In this document: positions 7,365 through 56,263 of the stretch, in pieces
Numbering within the stretch: position 1 is the first letter of the stretch
Layout of the letters: each line of letters opens with the position of its first letter
Made by a program: the position numbers and the translations under genes
The notes under the pieces: model-generated
Told to the model about the DNA's origin: nothing
The model's input: only the letters and a program-made list of their open reading frames with translations
Database searches by the model: none
NCBI RefSeq assembly: GCF_022637415.1
Contig: NZ_CP093340.1
Span: forward strand, 2,728,001-2,792,000
Direction: 5' to 3'
Source of the DNA: Luteimonas sp. S4-F44
GTDB lineage: Bacteria > Pseudomonadota > Gammaproteobacteria > Xanthomonadales > Xanthomonadaceae
DNA: 64,000 bases

Positions 7365-8462
<1,098 letters not shown>

Positions 8463-9213: not shown

Positions 9214-9232
9214 TCCATCGAGTTCGACGGGC

Positions 9233-10997: not shown

Positions 10998-11036
10998 CCA
11001 GGCGCCAAGGCCATGCTTTACCGACCACCGCACCCT

Positions 11037-11060: not shown

Positions 11061-11061
11061 A

Positions 11062-11586: not shown

Positions 11587-11607
11587 TCCCGAACCGGACC
11601 CCTTGCG

Positions 11608-28134: not shown

Positions 28135-29559
28135 CTACGGCGAAGCGGTCACGACGCAGCTGAAGCCCAATTCCAGCTGTCCGCCCACCGGTAGCGTCGG
28201 GACAACCAGGCCAGCGTTCTGCAAGGCACCGATCGTCGGCGATGCCGGACAGACGGCGCCGCCGCTCGCGCTGCACGAGACGACGGCCGCGCTGCAGTCC
28301 AGGCCGGCCACGGCGGGATCGCGAATCACCGCACCGCTGCCGTCCACGCCGTCGAGATGCGCGACTCTCAGGGTGAACGCGACATCACCGCCCACCGGTA
28401 CGTTCGTCGCCGATGCGGTCTTCTCGATCGACAGGTCGAGATCGTCGTCGAGCAGGGTCCACGTGGCCTGGGCGACCGCAGCTGCGCCACACGACTGGGT
28501 GGAACTGAGCAGGTAGTCGTCGGGACTCGGCTGCAAGGTCAGTTGTACAGTCCGGTTGCCGTCGATGATGGCATTGCCCAACGCCGTGAGGCCGAGCGGC
28601 TGCGCGACATTGCCCTCGTAGGTGCCGGCCGGGATGAAAACGCTGAACGTATTGGTGCCGCTGGGGGTGGTGAAATCCGTCCCCAGCACGGCGGTGCCGC
28701 CGGTGACCGAGACCAGGATGTTCAAGTCGTCGTCGAGGGTGCCGACGACGCGCAACTCCGGCAGGCCGGCGCTGGTCCCTTCCACGGTCTGGAACCCATT
28801 GCCAGTCAGCTCGATGAAGGGCTTGAGATAGACCTGAATGTCGTCGAGGAAGTTGCCCATCGCCGCCCCGCCCGACAGCGCTTCGAAGCCGATGTTGGTG
28901 ACGCCGCCTGTCCCGTTGTAGGCGAAGCTGCCGTTGTAGTCGCGCCACCCGTTGGGCCCGAGTACGGACGTCGCGGTGCCCTGCGATACCTGGAGCACGC
29001 CACCGCTGCCATTGTTGGTGGTCCCCACCTGCACGATCGGCGCGGTGCCGAGCAGAAAGGCCATCCGGTCCTGGGTGGTGGCACTGCTGCGTCCGCGATG
29101 ACTGAACTGCCAGCGCACCACGTCACCGGGGACCAGGCAGACGTTCTGCGCGATACGCGACAACTGTTCCGCATTGAGCTCGGCCAGCTGCGAGCCAGTG
29201 CGTGCATTCACCGTCAGTCCGCCATTGGTCCGCGGCGTGCGCCATATCTCGAGGATGCGTGCCTGTTGGCCGGCGACGAAGCCGGTCGGCACCACGCAGC
29301 CGCCCACGTTCTCCTGGGCCCAAGGGCCATGGCTCGTCGTCCAGCCGGGGACGAACTGCTCGCCGATGTAGACACGGCACCCTGCAGTCTGCAGGTTCGG
29401 CTCTTCGAAGCTCAGATTGATGAAGCTGCGCTGCACCGAATTCACGCCCACCTGGGCAGACGCCTGCGGCATGGCGATGGCGGCGATCGCGGCCGCCAGG
29501 GCGGCACCCAGCAGGGAGCCGCGGCGCGGCGCGGAAACAACGGAGTGGCGATCTTTCAT
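28135..29559 (-). CDS. Secreted protein with Calx-beta-like and DUF11-like regions (third gene of the surface operon)
   Basis: A 474-residue exported protein of unknown function. The signal peptide ends PQASA; residues 30-240 form a beta-rich domain (INLSFEEPNL, GEQFVPGWTT, RILEIWRT, GGVTNIGFEALSGG, MGNFLDDIQVYLKPFIEL) like those in surface proteins with a 'fails to clump' or carbohydrate-type beta sandwich. Residues 250-380 resemble a Calx-beta unit (VEGTSAGLPELRVVGTLDDDLNILVSV). The end is a DUF11-like segment (DLDLSIEKTASATNVPVGGDVAFTLRVAHLDG) with several Cys. The ATG at 29559 has AAGGG eight bases before it; 29577 is possible. The gene follows the barrel gene by 44 bp, so it is probably made with it. 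Confidence 0.75.
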   Translation of the reverse strand: MKDRHSVVSAPRRGSLLGAALAAAIAAIAMPQASAQVGVNSVQRSFINLSFEEPNLQTAGCRVYIGEQFVPGWTTSHGPWAQENVGGCVVPTGFVAGQQARILEIWRTPRTNGGLTVNARTGSQLAELNAEQLSRIAQNVCLVPGDVVRWQFSHRGRSSATTQDRMAFLLGTAPIVQVGTTNNGSGGVLQVSQGTATSVLGPNGWRDYNGSFAYNGTGGVTNIGFEALSGGAAMGNFLDDIQVYLKPFIELTGNGFQTVEGTSAGLPELRVVGTLDDDLNILVSVTGGTAVLGTDFTTPSGTNTFSVFIPAGTYEGNVAQPLGLTALGNAIIDGNRTVQLTLQPSPDDYLLSSTQSCGAAAVAQATWTLLDDDLDLSIEKTASATNVPVGGDVAFTLRVAHLDGVDGSGAVIRDPAVAGLDCSAAVVSCSASGGAVCPASPTIGALQNAGLVVPTLPVGGQLELGFSCVVTASP

Positions 29560-29603
29560 AGTCGAACCCTTGCTCATCGGTGCGGGCAGCCAGCGCTGCG
29601 TCC

Positions 29604-32600
29604 TTAGTAGCTACCCACGAAGTTGACGAACCAGCCCCGATGGTCGTAATCGAAATCGGTGAGGTCGTCGGTGAAGTCGGTGAAGTTGTAGCCGGCGCCG
29701 ATGCGGAAGTTCCGACCGATGTCGCGATCGAGGCCGGCCATCCAACCCTTGCGCGCGCCGCCATCCTTGACGTCCAGCCAGCGGTATTCCGCCATCGCGT
29801 GCCAGCGCTCGATCAGTTCGTAACGGACCTGACCCGCGGCGAACGTGGTGGCCGAATCGAACCAGGCGCCAGTGCCGCGGCCGAAGCGCACGTCGCCCTC
29901 GCGCCGCGCCAGCTTGCCGGCGAACTCCCAGTGATGATCGAGTCGGTACACGCCCTCCAGCGACAGCACCTGCGTCCGCTGATCGTACTGCGCGCCGCCG
30001 AGTTGGCCCAGCGTCGCCAGGTCGTAGAGATAGGTGTAGCGACCGAACAGGCCCCAGCGCGTGCTGTTCCACGGGCGGTAGGCGAAACCGAGATTGCTCT
30101 CGATGAACTTGGCGCTGGCGAACGGATTCAGATCGTCCTGGGTGTCGGCGTAGTTGAAGCGTGCGGCAATGCGCCAACTCTCGTTGAGCTTGTGGGTCAG
30201 GCGATGGGTGGTGACCCATTGGGTGATCCGCTCGGCACCGGTGTCCTCACGCCACTCCAGCTTGCTCTGCCAACTGGTGTCGCCGGAGGTCCGCCCGCCG
30301 CTCAAGCTCACTGCGCGCCGGTCGACCTGGCCGCCGTCGCTGTTGGTCAGTTCGCCGTCGCTCAGGGTGAAGCCGAGGTTCCAGCCGTAGGCCGGGAAGA
30401 AATCCATGCCGTAGGTATGGGCCAGGCCGCTCTCGCGCCGGCTCTTGAGGAACTGGCTTTCGTTGAAAAGGTTGACCTGGTTGGACAGACGCCAGCGCTG
30501 GCCGAGCGTCCAGCCGTTCTGCGCATTGGGGTTGAACAGCGGATCGTAGTCGCTGCGGTCGGTCGAGTAGGTGTAGGCGCCATAGAAGCTGTGCTGCGGC
30601 GACAGCCGATATTCGGCATCCACGCGCGCGGCATCGCCGCGATCGCCCGTGGTCAGTTCGGCCCCCACGGTGGAGAGATTGGCGAAGTTGTAGCGCCCGC
30701 CGAGCGTGAACGCATCATTGTCCGCGTAGCGGCCGCTGTCGTCGTCCAGGGTCAACTGCGCGGTGCCGTAGACATCCAGCGCAGTGCCGAACCGGCGGGT
30801 GTAGCGCAACGCACCGAGCAGGCCTGCGGCGTCGAAGAAGGCGCGCGACTCCTCGACCCGACGCAATTCGAACGCGAGCGCATCGGCCTCGCCGATCCGC
30901 CACTCGGCATTGGCCTGGGCCTGCGTGAGGGCGTCGGCATTGCGTTCGGCACGGCTGAAGCGCGCATAGACGCCGACGTTGGCACCGAACTGGCCCAGCA
31001 CCTCGGCCCCGTACTCCTCGATCTGCGCACCGGTATCGAAGCGCGAGATCGAATAGCCGGCGTCGACCTGACGCCACCACGCCCCCGCGCTCCACGGCTG
31101 CTCACTCCAGCCGAGCTCCTGGAAATTCGCGCGGGCCTCCACTGCGGTCGCCTCGCCTTCCCGGGATCCGCCGGGATTGAGCCGGCTGAAGCTCAGGCCG
31201 CCGTTGTCGGAGAAGAACACCGGTGCGCTCGTCGATTCGGTCCGGCTGTGCTCGAGCTTGAGATAGGTGCCCTTGCCGGCCTGAAGCGTGACGTCGGCCG
31301 ACATCAGCGAGTAGTCCTCGCCGGCACGATTCTCGTCGACGTAGGTCAGGCCGACACCGAGGTGGTCGCCGAACCAGTGCTTACCGCGCACACCGGCGGC
31401 GATCTCGTCGGCGTTGAAATCGTTGGGCACCCACTCGTAATCCACGAGCAGCCGCTGCTCAAGACCGTCGAGCGGCGCATCGCGGGTCAGCGTGGGCATG
31501 TTCTGCCGCGTGATCTGCGCCAGCGCCCGGGTCAGCAGGATGCGGCCCTGGAGTTCGTCGATCTCGTAGTCGGCGCCGCGCAACAGCACCACCCGCTGCT
31601 CGACACGGCCGGTGGTCCGGTCGCGCACTTCCAGCACCACCTGGTCGGAGCCGGGCAGCACGTCAGTGTGGCGCAGGTAGTACAGGCTGCCGCCGGTGCC
31701 GATGAACTCGCTGTGGCCGGGGGCGGTCTGCGCTTCGGACGCGAACGTCCGGAGCTGGCTCACCGGATCGCCCCAGGCATTGGCACCGCGCGAACGCCAG
31801 TTCAGCGCCGCGCCGTAGAGCGAGCGCACGTACTGGCCGTACTCGGTGCCGGTCAGGCCGGTGCTGAAGTTGCCCCACAGTGCCTCGTTCTTGTCCCACT
31901 CGGCGCGCAGGTAGAAGCGGCCCATGGTGTCGACATCGCGCCAGACGCTCGAGTCGTCGCCGTAGGTCGGGTAGTACAGATCCGGATCGAGACGACGGAA
32001 GACGTCCTGCGGATCGGCGGACGTAAAGCCGTCGAACAGGTCCTCCAGCGGGCGATTCTGGGTGTCGGCCTGCGCCGTGATCAGGTACTTGCCCTGGGCC
32101 TTCGCCTTCAGATAGAAGGCCAGGCGCCCGTCGCTGAGGATGTCGTCCTCGCGGCCCGCCATGGCCAGCGAACGTCCAGGCCCGCTGGCCTTGTTCTGAT
32201 ACACCGTGACGTCGGCCAGGCCCACGCCGAAGAAGTAGCGGCCGCTGACGTCAACCTCCAGCGCCCGTTGCAGCGGCGCCTCGCCCTCCGGCGCTTCGAG
32301 GGTGATCTCGAACCGGTGATGGCCGATCGGCATCAGGTACTCGGCGACGAACTTGCGCTCCAGATCGACGGGATAGTTCTCGCCGTTGATGCGCAGGCCA
32401 TAGCCGGCGGGCAGGTTGCGGCCCTGTACGCGCACCCGCGATCCATAGATCGGGATGTTCTGCTGGCGCAGTCCGTTGTCGGCGAACACGTCGTCGATCA
32501 GCGCCTGGTTGCGCGCCTGCTCGATGCCCAGCGCCGTGCCGAGCGAGCGCTCGACCCCGTCGCGCAGCCGCTGGATGCCCCGCTCGGCCTCGTCGGGGCG

Positions 32601-33278
32601 CACCAGTTGCAGCTTTCGAGGCGAGGTCTCGTCGAAGTTGCCCGCCGCATCGTAGGCGCGCAGGACATAGACCAGTTCGTCTCCGGTCCGCAGCGACAGG
32701 CCCGCCGGCAACGCGCCATCCCACTCGCTCTGCGAGACCGCTTCGACCGGCAACCCGAAGCGGGCGACCGGCTCGACCAGATCGGCATCGTTGCCGCGAT
32801 AGAGCGTCAACTCGTATCGCTCGACAAACGACACATAGTTACTGCGGACAAAGAACTTGACCGGCTCGACAATCCGCCCGGCATCGAAGGCCACCATCGC
32901 CGGAGCCGACACCGTCAACTCGGGCGCCCCCAGGCTCGGGTCCTCGGTGGCCCAGACCACGCCGCCCCCGGGCAGCTGGGCGGAGAACGCGCCACGGACG
33001 GTCGCACGGCCAGGTTCGTCCAGAGCGACGGACACCCGGCGGTCGGGCTGCAGCGCCTCGGACGACGAGCGTGCGTCGGTGCCGACGCTCACCGGCTGGT
33101 CGAAGCTGCGGGTGCGTACCCGGAACACCAGGTCGCCGGCCTCGGTGGTGCAGGCACCGTCGTCGCAGTCCATCGTCGGATCGGTCGCGGGTTCCGCGGC
33201 CCGGGGCTGGCCCAGCACGGCGGAACTCATGCCCGCCAGGATGCCGATCAAGGCGGTATCAAGCAGTTTCATCTTCAT
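29604..33278 (-). CDS. Large outer-membrane barrel protein (second gene of the surface operon)
   Basis: A 1224-residue protein with a signal peptide (MKMKLLDTALIGILAGMSSAVLG). Residues 25-390 look soluble and beta-rich, with Ig-like stretches (ELTVSAPAMVAFDAG, SRVRVQGRNLPAGYGLRINGENYPVDLE, HHRFEITLEAPEGEAPL). From about residue 400 the alternating pattern of aromatic and polar residues is that of a large barrel (RFYLRAEWDKNEALWGNF, YGAYTYSTDRSDYDPLF, WGLFGRYTYLYDL), and it ends GWFVNFVGSY with a terminal aromatic residue. There is no TonB plug that I can recognise. The frame has a GTG at 33296 overlapping the upstream stop (GTGA), but the ATG at 33278 with GAGGA upstream is likelier. It probably exports, anchors or modifies the giant repeat protein. 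Confidence 0.75.
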   Translation of the reverse strand: MKMKLLDTALIGILAGMSSAVLGQPRAAEPATDPTMDCDDGACTTEAGDLVFRVRTRSFDQPVSVGTDARSSSEALQPDRRVSVALDEPGRATVRGAFSAQLPGGGVVWATEDPSLGAPELTVSAPAMVAFDAGRIVEPVKFFVRSNYVSFVERYELTLYRGNDADLVEPVARFGLPVEAVSQSEWDGALPAGLSLRTGDELVYVLRAYDAAGNFDETSPRKLQLVRPDEAERGIQRLRDGVERSLGTALGIEQARNQALIDDVFADNGLRQQNIPIYGSRVRVQGRNLPAGYGLRINGENYPVDLERKFVAEYLMPIGHHRFEITLEAPEGEAPLQRALEVDVSGRYFFGVGLADVTVYQNKASGPGRSLAMAGREDDILSDGRLAFYLKAKAQGKYLITAQADTQNRPLEDLFDGFTSADPQDVFRRLDPDLYYPTYGDDSSVWRDVDTMGRFYLRAEWDKNEALWGNFSTGLTGTEYGQYVRSLYGAALNWRSRGANAWGDPVSQLRTFASEAQTAPGHSEFIGTGGSLYYLRHTDVLPGSDQVVLEVRDRTTGRVEQRVVLLRGADYEIDELQGRILLTRALAQITRQNMPTLTRDAPLDGLEQRLLVDYEWVPNDFNADEIAAGVRGKHWFGDHLGVGLTYVDENRAGEDYSLMSADVTLQAGKGTYLKLEHSRTESTSAPVFFSDNGGLSFSRLNPGGSREGEATAVEARANFQELGWSEQPWSAGAWWRQVDAGYSISRFDTGAQIEEYGAEVLGQFGANVGVYARFSRAERNADALTQAQANAEWRIGEADALAFELRRVEESRAFFDAAGLLGALRYTRRFGTALDVYGTAQLTLDDDSGRYADNDAFTLGGRYNFANLSTVGAELTTGDRGDAARVDAEYRLSPQHSFYGAYTYSTDRSDYDPLFNPNAQNGWTLGQRWRLSNQVNLFNESQFLKSRRESGLAHTYGMDFFPAYGWNLGFTLSDGELTNSDGGQVDRRAVSLSGGRTSGDTSWQSKLEWREDTGAERITQWVTTHRLTHKLNESWRIAARFNYADTQDDLNPFASAKFIESNLGFAYRPWNSTRWGLFGRYTYLYDLATLGQLGGAQYDQRTQVLSLEGVYRLDHHWEFAGKLARREGDVRFGRGTGAWFDSATTFAAGQVRYELIERWHAMAEYRWLDVKDGGARKGWMAGLDRDIGRNFRIGAGYNFTDFTDDLTDFDYDHRGWFVNFVGSY

Positions 33279-33292
33279 GATCCGGCGATTCC

Positions 33293-36200
33293 TCACTTGC
33301 GCTCTTCATCGACAGGCGCGGTCGGATCGGCGCTGGATTCCACGCGGACCTTCTGCCTGGTCTCCTCACGCAACCGCGCTGCCAGCGCCTGTTGCACTGC
33401 AGTCGCACGGCGCAGTCCCAGTGTCCCGTTGTAGGCGTGCGATCCGCGCACATCGGTGTGACCGACGAGCACCACCACGCCGCCGCCGAGCGCGTCCAGG
33501 CGCCGGGCGACCTCGTCCAGCAGTGCACCGAACTCCGGCTTGACCTCAGCGCGATCGGTATCGAACAGGACGGTTCCCAACAACGCGCCCCGGGCATCGA
33601 CACCGGCTACCAGCGCGTGCTGGTCGTCCACCACCGTGCGCAGCGCAACCGACAGACCCGCCCGCGCTTCCGGACCGACCTGTGCCTGCAGGGCATCGCG
33701 CACCGCCGCCGCACGGGCGAATGCCAGTGCTTCTTCGCCACCCTCGGCGACGATGGAGACGTCACCGCCGCCGTAGCGTTCGACCTGCTCGGCCATGCGC
33801 TCGATCGCCGGCAACCACATCGCACCGACCTCCGCGCTGCCCGGCGCGAAGATGACTTCGCCCAGTTCCAGATCGACCCGCTGCCCGCCGCCCGGCAGTT
33901 GCTCGACCGGCAGACGCACGCCGAAATCGAACCGGACCGGCAGGCCGGGCGTGACACGCCGCACCAGCGGGTTCGCGGTGGTGAATTCGGTGCCCGGCGG
34001 CAATGTGGCCGGATCGACCTTCAGGATGAAGTTGCGGCCATGGCGCCAGTCCCCGCCCTGCACATCGGCCAGGTGATAGCGGCCGTACTGATCCGTTTCG
34101 ATCAACAGCCCCTCCACCGACGCGATCCGCACACCAGGAATACCGCGCTCGTCGATGCCGTGGTTCTCGACGATGTAGGCCACTTCGTAGCCGTTCTCGA
34201 CCGCCGACACATGACGCGTCACCACCGGCTCGGCGGCATTGAGCCCCTTCGCCGCCTCGCCGTCGCGCTCCACCCGGGTCGACCCGTCGGCCGCCATTCG
34301 CACGGTGACGCCCTGCCCGCTGACCAGAACGAAGTCGTCGGTGAAGTCGGGCGCGCTCAGACGCTGGCGGATGATCACCCGATGGGCCTCGGCCGGATCG
34401 CCCACGGACTGCCGCGCCGAGATCGCACCGATCTCGATGCCGTGGAGTAGCGGCGCGCTGGCATCGGCGAGCGGCTGCGGGCCGTTGCCTCGGTCGATCG
34501 TCGTGGAGCCGGCGACGTACAGGTCGGACGCGAAGCCGCCCTGCACCCGTACCTCGGACAGATCCGCGCGGTCCTGCCACCCGTCACCGTCGCGATCGTC
34601 GAACACGGTGCCGAAGACCAGGCTGTCGTCGAGCAAGGGGTCTGACTCCAGCGACACCTGGGCAGTCGCCACATTGGACACCGGCGTCCCGGTCGTATCG
34701 ACCGCTACCGCTTCATTGACGTGCACGCCCTGTCGCACGCCTGCCCCGACCCGCAGCAGATACACCACGGTCGCGCGCTCACCGACGGCGATGTCGATGC
34801 CGCCGATGCGCAGCGGGTGCTGGCCGGTCAGAGTGAAGGCGCCATCGCGATCGGCGACCGCCATCGACCCTTCGACGTAGCTGAAGCCCGCAGGCGGCGT
34901 GTCCACGATGATGCCGTCGGTCACGTTCACCGTGCCCACGTTCTCCACCGTCACGGTGTAGCGCACCAGGTCGCCGATCTTCACATTCCGGCTGCCGACG
35001 GCCTTGCTGATGCGCAACTGCGCCTTGTCGGACACCTCATGGCGGGTCTGGCAAGTGGCGCACTCGGGCTCCGGACCACCGCCTTCGCTCATATAGCCAC
35101 CGAACACCCGGTTCTCCACCGCGCCGATCGCATCGGCGGTCACCGTGGCCGGATAGACGAAGGTGTAGGTGCCCGGCACGGTACCGGCGGGCAGCATGCA
35201 GACCACATTGCCGACCTCGGCAAGGCAGCCCGCCGGCAGCACGCCCACCGCCAGGCCCTGCCCGGGGGTGTCGGACAACCGCATATCCGCGAGCGTGGCC
35301 GAATTCGCGACGTCCACGGTCAGCGTGTACTCGATGACATCGCCGACCTGCACCTGCTGCGCCTCGCCGGGCGTAGCGTGCTTGGCAATGCGCACGCGCG
35401 GCTCTGCCAGCGGATGCTCGGTGCTGCATGCGCCGCACACTGGAGGAGGTCCGCCCTCGCCGGTGCCGCCGCTGGCGGTCACGACGTTGCCGACGGTTCC
35501 GGTGGCGGCGCTGTCCACGGTGGCTGTGTACGTCAGCGCATAGCGGCCCGGGAGCGTGCCGACCGGCAAGGTGCAGGTCAGCGCGCCCGTGCAGGTGAAC
35601 GCACCGGCGTCGGTCACTTCGCCGAAGGTCAGACCGGTGCCGAGCGTATCGGTCAGTGTGAGCGTGTCGAGGGTGGCGGAGTTGGCGACGACCGCGGTCA
35701 GCGTGTAGACGAGCACATCGCCTGCGCGCACTTCCGTACCATTCCCTGGCTCGGAGGTCTTGGTGACCTCGATTGTCGGCTGCTCGACTTCATGCTCGGT
35801 CTGGCAGGTGGTGCACACCGGTTCCGGGCCGTTACTGCCCGGCGGGATGCTCGCCACCACGACGTTGCTCAGGGTGCCGGTCGCATCCGCGTTGACGGTC
35901 GCGGTGTAGGTCAGCGTGTAGATGCCAGGCAGCGTGCCCGCCGGCAATGTGCAGGTCAGTGCACCGGTGCAGGCGAAGGCACCCGCATCGGTGACCGCAC
36001 CGAAGGTCAAGCCTGCCCCAAGCGTATCGCTCAGGGTCAGCACTTCGGTCGTCGCCGAGTTCGCGACCGTCGCGGTCAGGATGTAAGTCAGCGTGTCGCC
36101 AGGCGACACCTCGCTCCCGGAAGCCGGGTTGGAGCTCTTGCTCACCGTGATCGACGTCGCGACGACCGGATGTTCGGTCTCGCAGGTCGTGCACACCGGC

Positions 36201-39200
36201 TCGGGGTCATTGCCGCCAGGCGGCGTGGTCGCCACGACGGCGTTGCCGACGCTGCCGGTCGCATCCGCGTTGACGGTCGCGGTGTAGGTCAGCGTGTAGG
36301 CGCCCGGCAAGGTGCCGGCTGGCAACGTGCAGGTCAGTGCGCCAGTGCAGGCAAATGCGCCCGCGTCGGTCACGACACCGAAGGTCAAGCCTGCCCCAAG
36401 CGTATCGCTCAGCGTCAGCACTTCAGTCGTCGCCGAATTCGCGACCGTCGCGGTCAGCGTGTAGGTCAGCGTGTCGCCGGGCGAGACCTCGCTACCCGTC
36501 GCCGGATTGGAGCTCTTGCTCACCGTGATCGCAGTCGCGACGACCGGATGCTCGGTCTCGCAGGTCGTGCAGATCGGCTCGGGGTCATTGCCGCCAGGCG
36601 GCGTAGTCGCCACGACAACGTTGCCAACGCTACCCGTCGCGTTGGCGTCCACCGTGGCGGTGTAGGTCAGCGTGTAGATGCCAGGCAGCGTGCCCGCCGG
36701 CAATGTGCAGGTCAGTGCACCGGTGCAGGCGAAGGCACCCGCATCGGTGACCGCACCGAAGGTCAAGCCTGCCCCAAGCGTATCGCTCAGGGTCAGCACT
36801 TCGGTCGTCGCCGAGTTCGCGACCGTCGCGGTCAGGCTGTAAGTCAGCGTGTCGCCAGGCGACACCTCGCTCCCGGAAGCCGGGTTGGAGCTCTTGCTCA
36901 CCGTGATCGACGTCGCGACGACCGGATGTTCGGTCTCGCAGGTCGTGCACACCGGCTCGGGATCGTTGCCACCCGGCGGGTTGGTTGCCACGACGACGTT
37001 GCCGACGCTGCCGGTTGCATCCGCATTGACGGTCGCGGTGTAGGTCAGCGTGTAGGCGCCCGGCAAGGTGCCGGCTGGCAACGTGCAGGTCAGTGCGCCA
37101 GTGCAGGCAAATGCGCCCGCGTCGGTCACGACACCGAAGGTCAGTCCCGCACCGAGCGTATCGGCGAGCGTCAGCACTTCGGTCGTGGCCGAATTGGCAA
37201 CCGTCGCGGTCAGCGTGTAGGTCAGCGTGTCGCCAGGCGACACTTCGCTGCCCGAGGCCGGATTGGAGCTCTTGCTCACGGTGATCGACGTCGCGACGAC
37301 CGGGTGTTCGGTCTCGCAGGTGGTGCACACCGGCGGCGGATCGTTCCCGCCAGGCGGGTTGGTCGCAGTCACAACATTGCCCACGCTGCCCGTCGCATCC
37401 GCATTGACGGTCGCGGTGTAGGTCAGCGTGTAGCTGCCCGGCAGCGTGCCGGCCGGCAGCGTGCAGGTCAGTGCGCCGGTGCAGGCGAAGGCACCCGCAT
37501 CGGTGACCGCACCGAAGGTCAAGCCTGCCCCAAGCGTATCGCTGAGGGTCAGCACTTCCGTCGTGGCCGAGTTCGCGACCGTCGCGGTCAGCGTGTAGGT
37601 CAGCGTGTCGCCAGGCGACACCTCGCTGCCGGAAGCTGGGTTCGAGCTCTTGCTCACCGTGATCGACGTCGCGACGACCGGATGTTCGGTCTCGCAGGTC
37701 GTGCACACCGGTTCGGGGTCATTACCGCCCGGCGGGGTGGTCGCCACAACAACGTTGCCGACCGTCCCGGTCGCATCCGCATTGACGGTCGCGGTGTAGG
37801 TCAGCGTATACGTGCCCGGCAGCGTGCCCGCCGGCAAGGTGCAGCTCAGTGCACCGGTGCAGGCAAACGCACCCGCATCGGTGACCGACCCGAAGGTCAG
37901 ACCGGTGCCGAGGGTATCGGCGAGGGTCAGCACTTCAGTCGTCGCCGAATTCGCAATCGTCGCGGTCAGCGTGTAGGCCAGCGTGTCGCCAGGCGACACT
38001 TCGCTACCCGAGGCCGGGTTCGAGTTCTTGCTCACGGTGATCGACGTGGCAACGACCGGATGTTCGGTCTCACAGGTCGTGCACACCGGTTCCGGATCGT
38101 TGCCGCCCGGCGGCGTGCTGGCCACTACGACATTGCCGACGCTGCCGGTCGCGTCCGCATTGACGGTCGCGGTGTAGGTCAGCGTGTAGGTCCCCGGCAA
38201 GGTGCCGGCCGGCAGTGTGCAGGTCAGTGCGCCGGTACAAGCAAAGGCACCCGCATCGGCCACGGCACCGAAGGTCAGTCCCGCACCGAGCGTATCGGCG
38301 AGCGTCAGCACTTCAGTCGTGGCCGAATTGGCAACCGTCGCGGTCAGCGTGTAGGCCAGCGTGTCGCCAGGCGACACTTCGCTGCCCGACGCCGGGTTCG
38401 AGGTCTTGCTCACCGTGATCGACGTCGCGACGACCGGGTGCTCGGTCTCGCAGGTCGTGCAGACCGGCGGCGGATCGCTACCGCCTGGCGGCGTGGTCGC
38501 CGTCACGACGTTGCCCACGCTACCCGTCGCGTTGGCGTCCACCGTGGCGGTGTAGGTCAGCGTGTAGCTGCCCGGCAAGGTGCCGGCTGGCAGCGTGCAG
38601 CTCAGTGCACCGGTGCAGGCGAAGGCACCCGCATCGGTGACTGCACCGAAGGTCAGGCCCGTGCCCAGCGTATCGCTCAGCGTCAACACTTCGGTCGTCG
38701 CCGAATTCGCGACCGTCGCGGTCAGGATGTAGGTCAGCGTGTCGCCAGGCGACACTTCGCTGCCCGACGCCGGGTTCGAGGTCTTGCTCACCGTGATCGA
38801 CGTCGCGACGACCGGGTGCTCGGTCTCGCAGGTCGTGCAGACCGGCGGCGGATCGCTACCGCCTGGCGGCGTGGTCGCCGTCACGACGTTGCCGACACTA
38901 CCCGTCGCATCCGCATTGACGGTGGCGGTGTAGGTCAGCGTGTACGTGCCCGGCAACGTGCCAGCCGGCAGCGTGCAGCTCAGCGCGCCCGTGCAGGCAA
39001 ACGCGCCCGCATCGGTGACCGCGCCGAAGGTCAGACCTGCACCGAGCGTATCGCTCAGCGTCAGCACTTCGGTCGTGGCCGAGTTCGCGACCGTCGCCGT
39101 CAGCGTGTAGGTCAGCGTGTCGCCAGGCGACACTTCGCTACCCGACGCCGGGTTGGAACTCTTGCTCACCGTGATCGACGTCGCGACGACCGGATGCTCG

Positions 39201-41665
39201 GTCTCGCAGGTGGTGCACACCGGCGGCGGATCGCTACCGCCCGGCGGCGTGGTCGCCGTCACGATGTTGCCGACACTACCCGTCGCATCCGCGTTGACCG
39301 TGGCGGTGTAGGTCAGCGTGTAGCTGCCCGGCAGCGTACCGGCAGGCAAGGTGCAGCTCAGCGCGCCCGTACAGGCGAACGCACCGGCGTCGGTGACCGC
39401 ACCGAAAGTCAGGCCGGTACCCAGCGTATCGCTCAGCGTTAACACTTCGGTCGTCGCCGAATTCGCGACCGTCGCGATCAGGATGTAGGTCAGCGTGTCG
39501 CCAGGCGACACCTCGCTGCCGGAAGCTGGGTTCGAGCTCTTGCTCACCGTGATCGACGTGGCAACGACCGGATGCTCGGTCTCACAGGTCGTGCACACCG
39601 GTTCCGGATCGTTGCCGCCCGGCGGGTTGGTGGCAACGACAACGTTCCCAACGCTGCCCGTTGCCGAGGCATCCACCGTGGCCGTATAGGTCAGCGTGTA
39701 GGTGCCCGGCAAAGTCCCGGCCGGCAGCGTGCAACTCAGTGCGCCGGTACAGGCAAACGCACCCGCATCGGTCACGGCACCGAAGGTCAGTCCCGCACCG
39801 AGCGTATCGGCGAGCGTCAGCACTTCCGTTGTGGCCGAGTTCGCGACCGTCGCGGTCAGCGTGTAGGTCAGCGTGTCGCCAGGCGACACCTCGCTGCCGG
39901 AAGCTGGGTTCGAGCTCTTGCTCACCGTGATCGACGTCGCGACGACCGGATGTTCGGTCTCGCAGGTCGTGCAGACCGGCTCGGGATCGTTGCCGCCCGG
40001 CGGCGTGGTCGCCATGACGACATTGCCGACGCTGCCGGTCGCATCCGCATTGACGGTCGCGGTGTAGGTCAGCGTGTAGATGCCCGGCAGCGTGCCCGCC
40101 GGCAATGTGCAGGTCAGTGCTCCAGAGCAGGCAAATGCACCCGCATCGGTGACCGCACCGAAGGTCAGACCGGTGCCGAGCGTGTCGGCGAGGGTCAGCA
40201 GTTCGGTCGTCGCCGAGTTGGCGATCGTCGCCGTCACCATGTAGGTCAGCGTGTCGCCAGGCGACACCTCGCTACCCGACGCCGGGTCGGAACTCTTGCT
40301 CACCGTGATCGCAGTCGCGACGACCGGATGCTCGGTCTCGCAGGTCGTGCACACCGGCTCGGGATCATTGCCGCCCGGCGGGGTCGTCGCCACAACAACG
40401 TTCCCAACGCTGCCCGTTGCCGAGGCATCCACCGTGGCCGTATAGGTCAGCGTGTAGGTGCCCGGCAGCGTACCGGCCGGCAAGGTGCAGGTCAGTGCGC
40501 CGGTGCAGGCAAACGCACCCGCGTCGGTCACCGACCCGAAGGTCAGACCGGTGCCGAGCGTGTCGGCGAGGGTCAGCAGTTCGGTCGTCGCCGAGTTGGC
40601 GATCGTCGCCGTCACCATGTAGGTCAGCGTGTCGCCAGGCGACACCTCGCTGCCGGAAGCTGGGTTCGAGCTCTTGCTCACCGTGATCGACGTCGCGACG
40701 ACCGGATGCTCGGTCTCGCAGGTGGTGCACACCGGCTCCGGGTCATTACCGCCCGGCGGGTTGGTCGCAGTCACGACGTTGCCGACACTGCCGGTCGCAT
40801 CCGCATTGACGGTGGCGGTGTAGGTCAGCGTGTACGTGCCCGGCAAGGTGCCCGCGGGCAGCGTGCAGCTCAGCGCGCCGGTACAGGCGAAGGCACCCGC
40901 GTCGGTCACGGCACCGAAGGTCAGGCCGGTACCCAGCGTATCGCTCAGCGTCAACACTTCGGTCGTCGCCGAATTCGCGACCGTCGCGGTCAGGATGTAG
41001 GTCAGCGTGTCGCCAGGCGACACCTCGCTGCCCGACGCCGGGTTCGAGGTCTTCGCCACCGTCACGACCGAGGCCAACGGATGCTCGGTGGCGCAGCTTG
41101 TGCATGTCGGCGAAGGGGACTGCGGATCATCAGGATCGCCACCGCCCGTGGCGACCACCGCATTCCCGACCGATGTCTGCGCATCCGCGTCGACGGTGGC
41201 GGTGTAGACGACGCTGTAGTCGCCCGGCGCCGCCCCGGCCGGCAGGGTGAAGGTGCGGGCGTTGCCGCTACCGCTTTCAACGAAGCCGCCGGCGCTGGTC
41301 ACTGCGCCGAAGATCAGCCCGGCGCTGAGCGTGTCGTTCAACACGACGTCGGACTGGGTGGCGGCTTCGGTCACCCTCACGTTCAGCGTGTAGCTGATGA
41401 CCTGCCCCACGACCACGGTCGAACCGGCGGCGGGATCGGCGCTCTTGACGACCTCAACGATCGGGCGCGCCGCGGTGACCGTTGCGCTTGCCGTGTTGTT
41501 GGCAAGCTCGATGTCGTTCGTACCCGGCGGCGCGGAGACGGTCGCGACATTGGTCACGGACGTCGACTGGGCGAACGCCGCAGACGCTCCCGCCAATCCC
41601 AGAAGACACGCCAGTACCGTACCGCCGGCGGCCGCTGCGGCCGCCCGGATGTTGTTCAACAGCAT
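33293..41665 (-). CDS. Giant DUF11-repeat surface protein with C-terminal OmpA-like domains
   Basis: A secreted protein of 2790 residues. Order: signal peptide ending ASAAFAQ; one divergent DUF11-type domain; fourteen near-identical 126-residue units (about residues 194-1956) with [34 protein letters not shown] and [11 protein letters not shown]; two divergent units; one plain DUF11 domain ([26 protein letters not shown]); a region with a carboxypeptidase-regulatory-like fold ([22 protein letters not shown]); a degenerate OmpA-like domain ([12 protein letters not shown]); and a standard one at the end ([26 protein letters not shown]). OmpA domains bind peptidoglycan, so the C-terminus is probably periplasmic and the repeats form a stalk. 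The ATG at 41665 has GGGGGA before it; a GTG at 41788 also opens the frame. The stop overlaps the barrel gene. Confidence 0.88.
   Translation of the reverse strand: [2790 protein letters not shown]
35798..41086 (-). repeat. Fourteen tandem 378-bp coding repeats
   Basis: Fourteen consecutive units, each 378 bp (126 codons), inside the giant gene; the matching VSPGDT position recurs every 378 bp from about 41020 down to about 36106 without any indel in between. The first unit is one codon shorter at its edge. Variation between units is limited to alternative short blocks, such as NDPEP or NDPPP or SDPPP before CTTC and VVVATT or VVTATN, which appear in mixed combinations as expected from gene conversion. 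The array ends in two divergent copies below 35798. Confidence 0.97.
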
Positions 41666-41835
41666 CCCGCAATCCCCCGAAAAACCTGCCATGGCCCGAG
41701 ATCGACGGACCCGCATTTCCTGAATGACGATCCGGCCGCGCGACAACGCGCTCCATTGAGCTCGTCGTTCAGAAAGAAACTTCCCCACTGCGTGTGATGC
41801 CGCGCGCCTGACGAACCATTGGCGGGCGGGACGGC

Positions 41836-41865
41836 ATTCTATGCATGCAAAAAATTAGACGTCAA
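41836..41865 (-). promoter_or_regulatory. Sigma70-type promoter of the surface operon
   Basis: On the minus strand TTGACG (41865-41860), an 18-bp AT-rich spacer and TAGAAT (41841-41836): five of six consensus bases in each hexamer, a strong match for this GC-rich genome. Transcription would start near 41829, giving a leader of about 160 nt before the ATG at 41665. Confidence 0.65.
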
Positions 41866-42551: not shown

Positions 42552-43277
42552 TTACCAGGTCAGCACATACCCCACACCGCGCACCGAGCGCAGGGGCAGC
42601 GCCATCCCGGTGCTTTCCTGGCATTTGCGCCGCAGCCGATAGACCAGCATCTCGAGCCGGTGCGGATCGAACTCGTGCACGTCGTCGGCAAGCCCGGCGA
42701 TCAGATCCTCGCGTCGAACCGGCTGTCCCGGGGAGCCGGCGAGCCGGCGCATGACTTGCTGCTCGGCGAGCGTGAGTTCGACCGCGCGACCGTCGGGCAG
42801 CAGGATGTTCCAGCCGCGTTCGTCGAGCCGCCAGCCGGTCTCACCACTGCCCTCATCACCCGCCTCACCGCCTTCGCTGCCGTCGGAAGGGACGACGCGG
42901 CGCGAGAGGTTGCGCAGCGTGGCGATCAACGCGCTGGCCTCGACCGGTTTGGTCAGATAGGCATCGACACCGGATTCCAGGCCACGCAGCCGGTCGTTGT
43001 TGGAGACGTAGCCGGTTAGCATCACCAGCCCGATCGTAGGCGCGGCCTCGCGGAGATGGCGGGCGATCGCGAAGCCGTCCTCATCCGGCAGGCCGACATC
43101 GAGCAGCACCAGGTCGTAGCGGCTGGCCACCAGATCGCGATACAGCGCCAGCGCGCCGGGCATGCCGGTCGCCTCGAACCCAGCCGCACGCAGCAAGGGC
43201 ACCAGGATCTCGTCACGCAGTTCGTCGTCATCCTCGACCACCGCGACTCTGACACGCTCAACCGCCGCCCCGTTCAC
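42552..43277 (-). CDS. OmpR-family response regulator, no adjacent kinase
   Basis: A 241-residue DNA-binding response regulator. The receiver has the acidic pair VVEDDDE, the phosphorylation Asp in DLVLLDVGLPDEDG near residue 55, the Thr in VMLTGYVSNND and the Lys in YLTKPVE. After a Gly/Glu/Ser linker (SEGGEAGDEGSGE) comes the winged helix: LTLAEQQVMRRLAGSPGQPVRREDLI, YRLRRKC and LPLRSVRGVGYVLTW. No sensor kinase gene lies next to it. The start is taken as the GTG at 43277; the ATG at 43322 adds 15 residues and is the main alternative. It lies directly upstream of the surface operon on the same strand, so control of that operon is possible but not shown. Confidence 0.85.
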   Translation of the reverse strand: MNGAAVERVRVAVVEDDDELRDEILVPLLRAAGFEATGMPGALALYRDLVASRYDLVLLDVGLPDEDGFAIARHLREAAPTIGLVMLTGYVSNNDRLRGLESGVDAYLTKPVEASALIATLRNLSRRVVPSDGSEGGEAGDEGSGETGWRLDERGWNILLPDGRAVELTLAEQQVMRRLAGSPGQPVRREDLIAGLADDVHEFDPHRLEMLVYRLRRKCQESTGMALPLRSVRGVGYVLTW

Positions 43278-43368
43278 GCCATGTATCCCATTCCGAAGCG
43301 GGCGCCTCTCCCCGCGGGTCATGCGACAACGATAGCAAAACCCCGGTGAGCGCTGATCCCGGTTACCG

Positions 43369-47811
<4,443 letters not shown>

Positions 47812-50264: not shown

Positions 50265-51113
50265 TCAGCGCAGGCGCGAGAGCTGGATCGCGCGCAACCG
50301 GTCGGCTGCCGTGCGGGCCGCATCGGTGCCCGGATACTGTGTGCCGACCTCGGCCAGCGTGGCCTCGGCCGCGTCCAGATTCTTCAGCCCGTACTGCGAC
50401 AGGCCGACCTTAAGCAGGGCGCCTGGCGCCTTGTCGCTGGTCGGATAGCGCTGCAGCAGCGCGCGGAACTGTTCTTCGGCCAAGGCGTAGTTCTGGGTGA
50501 CGTAATAGCTCTCGCCCAGCCAGTACAGCGCGTTGGGCGCGTAGGTGCCCTGCGGGTGCTGGGCCAGGAAGCCCTGGAACAACGTGGCCGATTCGGCGTA
50601 GTCGCCGTTGCGCAGCGCGGCGAACGCCTGCTCGTAGGCGCCGCGCTCGTCGGCCGGCGCCTGGGCCGTGGCCGGTGCGGCGGCAGGCGGCGGCGTGAGC
50701 GCACCTTGCGCCCCCGTCCCCGTCGCCGGGGCCGGTGCGGACCCGACGGCCCCGCGTCCAAGTTCGGGCAGTTCCATGCCGCCGGCACCGCCGGCGCCAC
50801 CCGCTTCGCCACCCGTGCCTTCGAGCCGGTTGAGCCGGCCGTCGATATCCAGGTACTGGCTGCGGTTGCTGTTCTTGAGCTGTTCGTTCTGCTGCTGCAG
50901 CTCCTCGACCTGCGAACGCAGGGCGACGAGTTCCTGCCGCAGCTGATTGACCTGGTTGAGCAGGTCCATGTTCGCGCTGGTATCTCCCGAGCGGGCCTCG
51001 AGCGCGGCGACGCGGTCGGCCAGGCTCGCGCGCTGCGCGGACGCGGGCGCGGCGACCACGAGGGTCGCCGCGAACGCAACTGGGAGCACCAGCCATTGAC
51101 GCATCGAAGGCAT
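50265..51113 (-). CDS. cpoB: Tol-Pal system protein CpoB (YbgF)
   Basis: A 282-residue periplasmic protein. The signal peptide ends APASAQ. Residues 28-90 form a coiled coil with heptads (LADRVAALEARS, LLNQVNQLRQELVALRSQVEELQQQNEQLKNS), which trimerises in the family. A Gly/Ala/Pro linker follows and then TPR repeats (AYEQAFAALRNGDYAESATLFQGFL, ALYWLGESYYVTQNYALAEEQF). CpoB links peptidoglycan synthesis by PBP1b with outer-membrane constriction during division. The start ATG overlaps the pal stop (ATGA), so it is coupled to pal. Confidence 0.93.
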   Translation of the reverse strand: MPSMRQWLVLPVAFAATLVVAAPASAQRASLADRVAALEARSGDTSANMDLLNQVNQLRQELVALRSQVEELQQQNEQLKNSNRSQYLDIDGRLNRLEGTGGEAGGAGGAGGMELPELGRGAVGSAPAPATGTGAQGALTPPPAAAPATAQAPADERGAYEQAFAALRNGDYAESATLFQGFLAQHPQGTYAPNALYWLGESYYVTQNYALAEEQFRALLQRYPTSDKAPGALLKVGLSQYGLKNLDAAEATLAEVGTQYPGTDAARTAADRLRAIQLSRLR

Positions 51114-51625
51114 CAGCGGGCGGTGTAGATGATCTCGACGCGACGATTGCGGGCCCAGCAATCTTCGTTCGACTCGGTGCACACCGGACGCTCTTCGCCG
51201 TAGCTCACGACGGCCAACTGGGCGGCCGAACCACCGTTGGCCTGCAGCGCCGAGGACACGCCATTGCCGCGGCGCTCGCCCAGGCCCTGGTTGTACTCGC
51301 GGCTACCGCGCTCATCGGCGTGGCCTTCGAGCGAGATGCGCGCCGAGCTGCGGTCGCGCAGGTACTTGGCGTGGCAGCTGACGATGGCCTGGAACTCCGG
51401 ACGCAGCGAGTCCTGATCCAGATCGAAGTAGACCACGCGCTGGCGCAGGCAGGCATCGCTGTCCAGATCGGCCGGCGTGTAGGCACCCGCGGTCGACGGG
51501 GTCGGCGCGACCGTGCCGGTGGACGGACCGGTGTCGACCGGCGCTTCTTCCTTCACCTTTTTGGAACACGCGACGGCGGCGGTGCAAAGCAGCGCTGCCA
51601 GCATCACACGGGTGGTCGTCTTCAT
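51113..51625 (-). CDS. pal: Peptidoglycan-associated lipoprotein
   Basis: Pal, 170 residues, an outer-membrane lipoprotein that binds peptidoglycan and TolB. Lipobox TAAVAC near residue 20, a short Pro/Thr linker, then the OmpA-like domain: VVYFDLDQDSLRPEF, SLEGHADERGSREYNQGLGERR (peptidoglycan-binding Asp and Arg present) and RNRRVEIIY. A Cys pair (VCTESNEDCWARN) near the end is worth noting. The next gene cpoB overlaps by 4 bp. Confidence 0.96.
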   Translation of the reverse strand: MKTTTRVMLAALLCTAAVACSKKVKEEAPVDTGPSTGTVAPTPSTAGAYTPADLDSDACLRQRVVYFDLDQDSLRPEFQAIVSCHAKYLRDRSSARISLEGHADERGSREYNQGLGERRGNGVSSALQANGGSAAQLAVVSYGEERPVCTESNEDCWARNRRVEIIYTAR

Positions 51626-51691
51626 CTCGTCGATCCTTGGTTATGTCGAATCAGGGCAGTGAGTATTGTTATGAAGGACGTGCAGGCAGCG

Positions 51692-53014
51692 TCAGCGCTG
51701 TTCCCGAAACGGACCCCATGCCGGTTCGCGCACATCACCATCGGCGAGGACGAGGCGCTGGCGTACCCGGCCGTCCGAAGAGACCGCATACAGCACACCC
51801 CTACGCCCCTCGCGCGCCGCGTACAGGACCATGCTGGCGTTCGGAGCGAAACTCGGCGATTCGTCGAGCGACCCGGGCGACAGCGTGGACCAGCGGGGCG
51901 ACCCCAGGCTGCGATCCAGCAGTGCAATACGGTACACGTTGCCCGATCCTTGCGCCACGACGATTTTCTTGCCATCGAAGGAGACCGACGGGTCGGCGTT
52001 GTAGCTGCCCTCGAAGGTCACCCGGGTGGCGTTGCCGCCGCTCGCCGGCGCCTGATAAACCTGCGGCCGGCCGCCCCGGTCGGAGATGAAGTACAGGCTG
52101 GCGCCATCGGGCGACCAGACCGGCGAGGTGTCGATCGCGAAGTGGTCGGTCACCTGAGTCAGCGCCTTGCTGCCCAGGTCCATGACGTAGATCTCGGGGT
52201 TGCCGCTGCGCGAGAGCGACAGCGCCAGACGCCGGCCGTCGGGCGAGAACGCCGGCGCGCCGTTGATGCCGCGGAAGCTGGACACCAGTTCGCGGCCACC
52301 GGTGGAGATGTCCTGGATGTAGATCGCCGAATTGCCGCGCTCGAAGCTCACGTAGGCGATGCGGCGGCCGTCCGGGCTCCAGGCCGGCGAGAGCAGCGGC
52401 TCGTTGGAGCGCACCACGGTCTGCGGGTTGTGGCCATCGGAATCGGCGACAACCAGCGCATAGCGGGCATCCTGCCCCAGCCCGGTCTGGGTCACGTAGG
52501 CGATCCGGGTCCAGAACGCGCCGCGCACGCCGGTGATTTTTTCGTAGATCGCGTCGGCCATCTGATGGGCGACATCGCGCATCGCGTTGGCGCGTGCGGT
52601 CATCGCCAGGCCGAGCATGCGCTCCTGCTTGGCGACGTCGAACAGCTCGTACTCGACCCGGTAGCCACCGCCGCCGGCGTCGACGACCCGGCCCACGACC
52701 AGGAAGTCCTGACGCAGCGCTCGCCAGGTCGGGTACTGGACCTCGCTGCCGCGGGTCGGACGCTCGACGATGTCGCGGTCGGGCAGCGTGCGGAACTGCC
52801 CGGAGCGGTCGAGGTCGGCGCGGATCACCGCGGCCACGTCGGTGTCGGGGGCGGTGCCGCTGCCCTGGTAGGGCATCGGGACGACCGCGATCGGCATCGC
52901 CTGCGCGCTGCCGCCGGTGATGTCGATCTCCAGGCCCTGCTGCTGCGCGCTTGCCATCATCGGCAGGGCGAGCGCGAACAGGACGATCAGACAACGGATC
53001 AGGATGGGTTTCAT
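51692..53014 (-). CDS. tolB: Tol-Pal system protein TolB
   Basis: Periplasmic TolB, 440 residues. Signal peptide ends MMASAQ; an N-terminal alpha/beta domain ([24 protein letters not shown]) is followed by a six-bladed propeller with the PD40 repeats [33 protein letters not shown] and [16 protein letters not shown]. TolB links Pal to TolA. The ATG at 53014 is the family start; the frame stays open upstream. About 80 bp upstream lies the broken tolA-like gene. Confidence 0.96.
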
Positions 53015-53094
53015 CGGCCTACCGGACATGGGAATGAGAAGAGACCCGCGCAGCTTGGCCGCTGCACGGCGCAACAAGATGAATCCGGGCGCAA

Positions 53095-53470
53095 TCATGG
53101 CGCGCCGGCGGTGAAGGTGATGATGAGCTCACGCTCGAACACCCGCTCGAAGCCCGGGTACGGCAATGGGGAGGCCCAGTACACCGCCTCGAGCAAGGAT
53201 TGCCGGGCGCCCGCATCGAAACCGCACTCGAGCGCGGGCTCGACCGACACCACCTCACCGCCGGGCAACTGATGGACCAGACCCCTGGCAGCGCACATCG
53301 CCGGCGATGTCGGGCTTGCACCACTGGCTCTGCACGGCCTGATGCAGCGCCATCCGATAGCGGGCCTCGAGCCCGTCGCCGGCCCGGCTGGTCCCCGGTG
53401 TCGCCAAGCCGCACACTGCCAGCACGCCTCCTGCGAATGCCGCCTTAGCCGTGGAGGCCGCACCTGGCAT
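53095..53470 (-). pseudogene. Frameshifted secreted paralogue of the TolA C-terminal domain
   Basis: Two frames that join into a protein of about 125 residues. The first (from the ATG at 53470) has a signal peptide and GLEARYRMALHQAVQSQW..., the second has HQLPGGEVVSVEPALECGFDAG and [22 protein letters not shown]. Together they align end to end with the TolA C-terminus (GLAAKYAAAIQEAVRRNW, TQLPGGEVISVEFDPSCPYD, PLPYAGFESVFNRRLNFNF) with no length change. The break is at a run of four G on the minus strand (53284-53287); removing one G restores RCQGLVHQLPGGE. The gene starts 2 bp after the tolA stop. It may be a pseudogene, a sequencing error or a slippage site. Confidence 0.8.
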
Positions 53471-53472
53471 CG

Positions 53473-54477
53473 TCAGTCCTGCGCGGTGAAGTTGAAGTTG
53501 AGCCGGCGGTTGAAGACCGATTCGAAGCCGGCGTACGGCAGCGGCTCGGCGGCGCGCACCGCGGCCTCGACCGATCGCCGGCCCTGGGCGTCGTACGGGC
53601 ACGACGGATCGAATTCGACGCTGATCACCTCGCCGCCCGGCAACTGAGTGATGTACAGGCGACAGCGCTGGCCCAACTGGATATTGTCGGGGCGGCGCCA
53701 GTTGCGGCGCACGGCCTCCTGGATGGCTGCCGCGTACTTGGCGGCCAGGCCGCTGTCGCCGTCGGGACGGCCGGGCGGCGGGCTCGCCGCCGACGACGCC
53801 GCGGACGCGGCCGCACGCTCGGCCGCCTGACGCGCCTCGCGGTCGGCGATCTGCTTGAGCCGCTGTTCGGCCAGGCTCGCCTCGCGCTGGGCTTTCTCGC
53901 GCTCTGCGCGCAGCTTCTCCAGCTCCTGGCGGGCGAGCCGGCGCTTCTCTTCGGCTTCCTGCTGCTTCTGCTGCTCGGCCAGCTCGATCTGCGCCTGCCG
54001 GCGCTTCTCTTCTTGCTCTCGTTCACGCGCCTCGGCAGCCTGCGCCTCTCGACGCACGGCGTCCTGGGACACGGTGTCGGGCTTGGGCACAACCTCCTGC
54101 GGCGCCGGCTGGCGACGCTCGACCGCATCCTCGGGACGCGGTTCGGGCAGCGGCTGCGGCGGTGCGGCGACCGGTTCGGGCTCCGGCTCGGGCAGCGGCT
54201 CGACCACCGGCTCGGGCGTGGGGGCTGGCACCGGTTCCGGCGCGGGTTCGGGTACGGGCTCGGCGACCGGCTCGGGGCGGCTGGCGAGCGCGCGCCGGTC
54301 GGCCGCGCTCAGCGCGTTGGGGTCGATGACGTCAGCCGAGACCGGCGAGCCGGCGGCCGAGGTCGGGCGCGACGACGCGCTCCACAGCGCGCCGAGCAGG
54401 ATCAGCCCGAACAGCAGCACGTGGACCAGGATCGCCAGTCCGACTGCGATCGCGTCGTCGGTGCGCGATTCACGCAT
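53473..54477 (-). CDS. tolA: Cell envelope protein TolA
   Basis: TolA, 334 residues, spans the periplasm from the inner membrane. N-terminal helix IAVGLAILVHVLLFGLILLGAL, then a long Pro/Glu-rich stretch (residues 65-125), a charged helical segment (residues 140-225, many EKRR and REAQ repeats) and the globular domain from about 245 (GLAAKYAAAIQEAVRRNWRRP to FNFTAQD). It transmits force from TolQR to TolB-Pal. Its start codon directly abuts the tolR stop. The frameshifted copy of its last domain follows at once. Confidence 0.94.
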   Translation of the reverse strand: MRESRTDDAIAVGLAILVHVLLFGLILLGALWSASSRPTSAAGSPVSADVIDPNALSAADRRALASRPEPVAEPVPEPAPEPVPAPTPEPVVEPLPEPEPEPVAAPPQPLPEPRPEDAVERRQPAPQEVVPKPDTVSQDAVRREAQAAEAREREQEEKRRQAQIELAEQQKQQEAEEKRRLARQELEKLRAEREKAQREASLAEQRLKQIADREARQAAERAAASAASSAASPPPGRPDGDSGLAAKYAAAIQEAVRRNWRRPDNIQLGQRCRLYITQLPGGEVISVEFDPSCPYDAQGRRSVEAAVRAAEPLPYAGFESVFNRRLNFNFTAQD

Positions 54478-54915
<438 letters not shown>

Positions 54916-54966
54916 GGCGAGGTCCGGGTTCGTGGACGGTCCAGCGACCGCCCGGCGCGGCTGGGA

Positions 54967-55764: not shown

Positions 55765-55770
55765 CCAGGA

Positions 55771-56220: not shown

Positions 56221-56263
56221 CGGGTCGGCTGACGGTTGGTGGCGTGGGATGGGGCGCGGGCAC

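Follow-up and report, generated by a model that had tools for sequence, protein, structure and literature searches.

The three-gene locus and its products

The window analysed here is a stretch of 64,000 nucleotides from contig NZ_CP093340.1 of the gammaproteobacterium Luteimonas sp. S4-F44, and the subject of this report is a run of three genes on its minus strand, at positions 28135-41865, named A, B and C. Gene A (33293-41665, minus), recognised from the list of open reading frames (ORFs) and by Pfam, likely starts at ATG 41665 and then encodes a DUF11-repeat protein of 2,790 aa with an OmpA end; its longest frame, of 2,831 aa, opens at GTG 41788, and its stop lies at 33293. Gene B (29604-33296, minus) encodes a predicted barrel protein, of 1,230 aa if read from GTG 33296, which overlaps the A stop by 4 bases (GTGA), or of 1,224 aa if read from ATG 33278, which leaves a 14-base gap. 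Gene C (28135-29577, minus) encodes a secreted protein of three domains, with 480 aa from ATG 29577 or 474 aa from ATG 29559, the latter 44 bases from B. Upstream of A, a sigma-70-like promoter (TTGACG-18-TAGAAT; 41836-41865, minus) matches 10 of 12 consensus positions, and a scan of 1 kb found two such sites, one per strand, against a mean of 0.1 after shuffling. The minus-strand layout given by an earlier, sequence-only reading of this DNA fits these data in starts, gaps and sizes, and the promoter that it placed ahead of A corresponds to a matching site, as judged by consensus only. Large frames also lie on the plus strand opposite A and B and look like by-products of high GC content. The window B and a protein of Luteimonas sp. 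RC10 share 99% identity.

A carries 17 DUF11/DUF7927 repeat units (35024-41467, minus), split by regular expression into units of 133 and 125 aa and 15 units of exactly 126 aa. A typical unit has four cysteines, and the 2,831-aa frame has 68. The match to Pfam DUF11 (PF01345) reaches 344.8 bits against a cut-off of 24.6, and DUF7927 is far over its Pfam cut-off. Nearer the C-terminus are an SdrD_B/carboxypeptidase-regulatory-like module (33908-34630, minus), here called the anchor module, and an OmpA-like domain (33377-33568, minus; PF00691, 33.4 bits against 27.2), preceded by a weaker OmpA-like stretch seen by eye. At the opposite end, after a signal peptide whose cleavage site was placed by eye, stands an orphan hairpin (41459-41572, minus) that corresponds to the final 37-38 residues of a full DUF11 repeat and is our proposed donor. 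In single-contig genomes, the open frames that hold A-type sequence span 713-6,222 aa. In one genome (G340:C1), A-type C-termini occur at five separate places, within frames 713-2,125 aa long.

The folds of B and C are model predictions. In the AlphaFold2 model of B (pTM 0.69), residues 70-300 (32292-32984, minus) form an N-terminal region, called Ig-like from its strand pattern and proposed to be periplasmic, and residues 316-1195 (29607-32246, minus) form one very large barrel; the barrel foreseen from the letters alone thus held up on modelling. The DSSP list has 45 strands of at least 7 residues after residue 306, some of which probably belong to a plug, and our estimate for the barrel is about 40 strands; the largest barrel quoted in the available part of PMC13067283 has 36. 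Pfam and NCBIfam assigned no family to the barrel at cut-off, Pfam barrel models appearing below cut-off only, and a search of PDB sequences gave no match to any solved sequence. Across eight diverse B proteins, Pfam gave matches to 13 families at E up to 1. Most of the B records listed are named 'hypothetical' or 'TonB-dependent receptor'. In a close relative (L067, genome G010, 7926-11617), B is split into two frames, flanked by C and a long A frame.

C is predicted to consist of a jelly-roll domain like CBM4/CBM16/CBM61 (28822-29436, minus), for which we propose glycan binding, a Calx-beta-like domain (28438-28827, minus) and a DUF11 domain without its last hairpin (28135-28443, minus; 'C_D'), the proposed acceptor. 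This terminal DUF11 scores 26.7 bits against the PF01345 cut-off of 24.6 and spans profile positions 1-72 of 114, a coverage that partly reflects divergence, the repeat-profile and direct alignments described below being better evidence for truncation. The C of one relative (L058, genome G001) is split into two frames.

Pairing of A and B and the probable anchor of A

The pairing of A and B is real, and the two constitute the two-gene core of the system. In a survey of 297 Lysobacteraceae genomes, in which matches with E up to 1e-25 (A C-terminus) or up to 1e-50 (B) were called strong, the A C-terminus was strong in 96 genomes, B in 103, and both in 95 (Fisher p 6e-67). Chance proximity can be dismissed, since 122 of 124 B matches in this family have an A C-terminus directly upstream on the same strand, with a median gap of 29 bp; the 124 are counted after exclusion of fragments and weak matches. 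In a separate count, 8 internal matches in G092 and G126 were set aside, and G074, with a B fragment, was scored as lacking B. Among 398 Pseudomonadota genomes, the B profile matches 60 and the anchor module 51, with 49 matched by both. When the 24 strongest of these B matches were compared, 23 had the anchor module within 2 kb upstream or in the same frame (G581), and in G521 the order was reversed. On plasmids of Croceibacterium, Vibrio, Eleftheria, Sinorhizobium, Sulfitobacter, Pelagibacterium, Nitratireductor and Loktanella, whose B proteins are 28-65% identical to that of the window, a giant ORF adjoins B in 8/8 cases. For named genomes, 77 of 80 loci were used, 74 of them with enough upstream DNA; an ORF longer than 500 aa adjoins B in 62 of the 74, by the length criterion alone, and at least two of the 62 (L104, L107) look like chance frames. 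Several of the B genes in Nitratireductor and Chelativorans are among those that lack such an ORF.

Co-occurrence of the homologues therefore bears out the A-B part of the three-gene system that the sequence-only reading had described (122/124 matches; 49/51 genomes) and contradicts an obligatory third gene. C is present in 81 of the 297 Lysobacteraceae genomes, against 103 with strong B, and thus only in a subset; C is optional, and we reject a system that requires all three genes. A search of 98 loci beyond Lysobacteraceae or on its margin, made with a Lysobacteraceae-type DUF11 profile insensitive to remote forms, detected a truncated-DUF11 gene at one (L249, two ORFs) and a C head at two, both before A-type sequence. 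Two further copies may be mentioned here. The Luteimonas genome itself has a second A-B copy (L064; G000:C1:3083115-3088201) with a B that is 77% identical. The B of a Croceibacterium plasmid (L084) is 65% identical to the window B, against 28-31% for the remaining alphaproteobacterial plasmid copies that were retrieved, and horizontal transfer is therefore likely.

A and B are also found as a single protein. Relatives that match mainly the central region of B are mostly frames of about 1,100-2,400 aa, and in all ten that were fetched (L231-L240) one frame encodes the anchor module, with DUF11, and then the barrel. A signal peptide was recognised by eye in nine of the ten, the start of L233 being cut off by the fetched stretch. 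L083 is a further A-B fusion, and in L246 a nearly complete anchor module is fused to a full-length B. The order of these fusions, from anchor module to barrel, places the C-terminus of A beside the N-terminus of B.

The anchor module is the only part common to 11 A proteins that were compared, and the peptidoglycan-binding domains change place. OmpA stands at the end of A in the window and at the N-terminus of B in Eleftheria and L081; in a Microbulbifer protein, LysM on B takes the place of OmpA; and the Vibrio A ends after the SdrD-like module, without OmpA. The sequence-only reading had the OmpA end anchoring the stalk to peptidoglycan. OmpA is indeed present on the window A, but it is not the general anchor, because the Vibrio A lacks it and other lineages carry OmpA or LysM on B, and OmpA as a universal anchor is ruled out. 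Given a shared module and movable OmpA or LysM domains, the SdrD-like module is the likely contact with B, and peptidoglycan binding appears, from domain order, to be a movable add-on.

The A hairpin and the truncated DUF11 of C

Truncation of C was measured against a profile of 137 residues built from complete internal repeats. The terminal DUF11 of C-type proteins ends at position 95-101 of this profile, 1-6 residues before the stop, at 28 of 30 loci; the 30 are matches to C's own truncated domain, a choice that favours truncated relatives. The two exceptions, L184 with complete repeats and L185 with a last domain reaching position 120, are in genomes without a B match. When aligned to one complete repeat, C covers residues 3-100 and the start of A aligns gap-free to residues 100-137. 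Mature A begins at about residue 101, because the first aligned alanine is, by eye, the last residue of the signal peptide. In these alignments, the end of C and the start of A tile one complete DUF11 repeat. Which DUF11 domain a hairpin is assigned to is a convention; either way, A has one hairpin extra and C is one short.

A hairpin survey was planned for 76 A-B loci; for 70 of them, the start of A was fetched together with as much as 10 kb of the DNA that follows B. Nineteen were dropped: 10 with the 5' end outside the contig, 2 with runs of N and 7 without a clear signal peptide. Among the remaining 51 readable loci, a hairpin was found at the A start in 38 by eye and in 27 by a shuffled-score test. 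None of the 13 starts judged hairpin-less scored as a hairpin, and their single significant match (L311) was to the start of a domain; L313, counted as having no hairpin, is doubtful. The hairpin is associated with a truncated-DUF11 gene downstream. By the eye classes, which preceded the scoring of downstream genes though some loci had been seen before, 29/39 hairpin loci (window included) have such a gene, compared with 1/13 of the others (p 3e-5). By the objective score, which came later and whose start-position rule was chosen then, the counts over 52 loci are 25/28 and 5/24 (p 6e-7). Four genomes (G000, G214, G269, G301) have two differing A-B loci, and the gene accompanies the hairpin copy each time. 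In the first of these, the window genome, the second A-B copy has no truncated-DUF11 gene within 10 kb downstream.

Chaining of C-type proteins among themselves was tested for Lysobacteraceae and found no support: 4/42 of these tip proteins carry a loose N-terminal motif, the regular-expression windows for A starts and background ORFs being similar rather than identical, and none of the four is hairpin-like by eye. In the fused A-B lineages, most fused proteins and several small neighbours begin, by eye, with a hairpin-like segment. Small secreted-looking proteins lie beside fused A-B genes in L235, L236, L239 and L240; of four small neighbours tested, three match DUF11 at their C-termini only to position 78-85 of 114, and that of L239 gave no DUF11 match. 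Some of the small proteins begin like a hairpin and also end in a truncated DUF11, and these might polymerise.

Nature has also joined the two parts in one chain. In Pelagibacterium xiamenense (L151), a protein of 704 aa is encoded directly before a second A-type gene and B. It matches the C profile over the CBM and Calx-beta part (E 6e-111), then carries a DUF11 that is complete with its hairpin by eye, and then the A anchor module (E 3e-132); the join is where the truncated DUF11 of C begins. The sequence-only reading had called the third protein a tip or partner, and the fit of hairpin and truncated domain, the locus association and this fusion lend that idea specific support. In Chelativorans salis (L128, 3515-8034), a C head is followed, by eye, by a frame that combines DUF11 with an A-type end, before B; the two successive frames are perhaps one interrupted gene. 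As far as domain order can tell, both loci put the C head N-terminal of an A-type chain, as the docking of C on A would predict. The L151 locus as a whole (4857-8941) is a three-gene run in an alphaproteobacterium: the fusion of C head and A anchor, a short A-type gene and B.

Two neighbouring regions of the window were named by eye. A response-regulator-like gene lies upstream of A (42552-43556, minus), and L069 and L073 have similar genes beside A. A Tol-Pal gene cluster, with queuosine genes nearby, was recognised from its translations at 51113-56289 (minus).

A proposed barrel-held stalk and its alternatives

We consider it moderately probable that the three proteins form a stalk held by the barrel, and that C, as a lectin-like tip, docks on the free N-terminus of this stalk by strand complementation. 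B would put its very large barrel into the outer membrane, with the Ig-like domains beneath. A would be exported by Sec, its C-terminal SdrD-like module remaining at B and its OmpA domain, where present, gripping peptidoglycan. The DUF11 stalk, probably made rigid by disulfides, would extend outwards, either inside the barrel or alongside it, its N-terminus being the part most distant from the cell, on the surface. There the mature N-terminus of A would offer a spare hairpin that completes the terminal DUF11 of C. Since C is without exactly the hairpin that the start of A supplies, C would cap the stalk as a sugar-binding tip, much as donor strands link the subunits of pili, and the whole may serve in adhesion.

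Docking is the least certain part of this model, and several observations speak against it or against its reach. First, 13 of the 51 A starts have no hairpin by eye, including that of the second copy in the window genome (L064), and related loci are not independent in the hairpin association. Second, the genera differ: 10 of 11 loci of genus g35 have neither a scored hairpin nor a local truncated-DUF11 gene, and all three loci of genus g65 have the gene without a scored hairpin. By eye, 7 of these 10 g35 starts and all three g65 starts were judged to be hairpins, often longer and with an extra cysteine-containing insert. Third, the truncated domain of C, modelled alone, has a pLDDT above 90; it is already confidently predicted and therefore may not need a donor, and the truncation could be a sorting signal instead. 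Fourth, C was not found at nearly all A-B loci searched outside Lysobacteraceae. Finally, the view that the barrel has room for Ig domains in the folded state depends on a model with a pTM of 0.69.

A sorting signal is central to the alternative that survives best, though we regard it as unlikely: a secretion system, resembling type 9 secretion (T9SS), in which B is the translocon, A a scaffold from periplasm to surface, and the truncated DUF11 an export signal for B or A. The truncated domain does form the very C-terminal end of proteins whose N-termini otherwise differ, 51 of 52 truncated-DUF11 ORFs near B are on the B strand, and B aligns with SprA over 615 residues. However, such a system leaves unexplained why A starts with the missing hairpin, why hairpin and gene are associated, and why a C head is fused to an A anchor. 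B is also widespread with A yet without truncated-DUF11 genes, motor or energy genes were not seen in the loci read, and no SprA model was matched by the window B (Pfam and NCBIfam) or by the eight B proteins (Pfam), in keeping with the lack of a PDB sequence match. T9SS hosts are Bacteroidota, whereas A-B is found in Pseudomonadota.

A contact system like TraA/TraB of Myxococcus, with A as a cysteine-rich recognition stalk and B as an anchoring barrel for cell-cell adhesion or outer-membrane exchange, appears improbable to us. Its appeal lies in a pair of genes that likewise overlap by 4 bases and in a TraA with a lectin-like head and a cysteine-rich stalk of repeats, as described in the available part of PMC3325183; in a TraB that combines a barrel with OmpA, according to that of PMC12045341; and in the 68 cysteines of A. 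However, the NCBIfam TraB model reaches 31.4 bits against a cut-off of 700, in L081 and over the OmpA stretch only, and we reject TraB homology of B on this account; the 20 NCBIfam matches of A include neither a TraA repeat model nor the sorting tag, and the predicted barrel of B is far larger. We give still less credit to an envelope tether, in which a periplasmic A links B to peptidoglycan and C acts elsewhere: OmpA on A, or OmpA or LysM on B, would suit it, but A frames of up to 6,222 aa are longer than crossing the periplasm should require, the Vibrio A is without OmpA, and C has a CBM-like head. Least credible is a role of B as nutrient porin or TonB-dependent receptor, with A or C capturing glycans for uptake. 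This idea draws on the database names of many B records, the CBM-like C and ABC-transporter genes that, at four of the seven annotated plasmid loci (L088-L091), lie no more than 12 kb from B, but those genes vary in kind between loci, and we reject the receptor name, as neither plug nor receptor barrel families are among the Pfam matches of the window B or the 13 Pfam matches of the eight B proteins.

The proposed A-C assembly, a stalk with a docked tip, would have the same polarity as chaperone-usher pili. Here, however, the fold is DUF11, the proposed complementing element is a two-strand hairpin and the stalk is one giant chain, not a polymer; the usher family is absent from the Pfam matches of the window B and of the eight B proteins, and no chaperone gene is named in the seven annotated plasmid loci. 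Type 5 secretion resembles the fused forms in the order of passenger and C-terminal barrel, and also has a two-gene form of passenger and barrel. In contrast, no autotransporter, POTRA or TpsB model was matched (a YadA-anchor hit in one of eight B proteins has E 0.14), and the A stalk is cysteine-rich and keeps a C-terminal anchor module. Type 11 secretion (Slam/DUF560) likewise pairs a dedicated barrel with a surface protein, but DUF560 is not among the Pfam matches of the eight B proteins. The earlier remark that no named secretion system with this makeup is known agrees with these tests, by which A-B is a member of none of the named systems tested. A literature search by titles and abstract openings, with most subscription papers and bioRxiv outside its scope, yielded no paper on the A-B pair. 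In its available part, PMC12282271 mentions DUF11 only as a companion domain of DUF1194; that of PMC11952670 has the number of DUF11 domains varying in an anchor protein, with donor strands appearing only in its reference list. Because the tests fit no named system and the literature searched is without the pair, we regard A-B as the core of a probable, undescribed outer-membrane surface system.

More tentatively, and with less confidence than we place in the stalk and its docked tip, these loci may represent a class of surface organelles of Alpha-, Beta- and Gammaproteobacteria, in which a folded, giant, disulfide-rich DUF11 chain is threaded through a barrel of about 40 strands and receives exchangeable sugar-binding tips by hairpin complementation; in the fused lineages, the small neighbours could assemble into DUF11 pili by head-to-tail polymerisation. 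If the model of the stalk and its docked tip is right, many environmental Pseudomonadota and some plasmids encode a means of displaying a very long fibre that has no name so far, and DUF11 would be another fold that joins secreted proteins by strand complementation. The model would raise the question of how so large a chain gets across the outer membrane, and it would provide a sequence rule that predicts which secreted proteins dock on which stalk.

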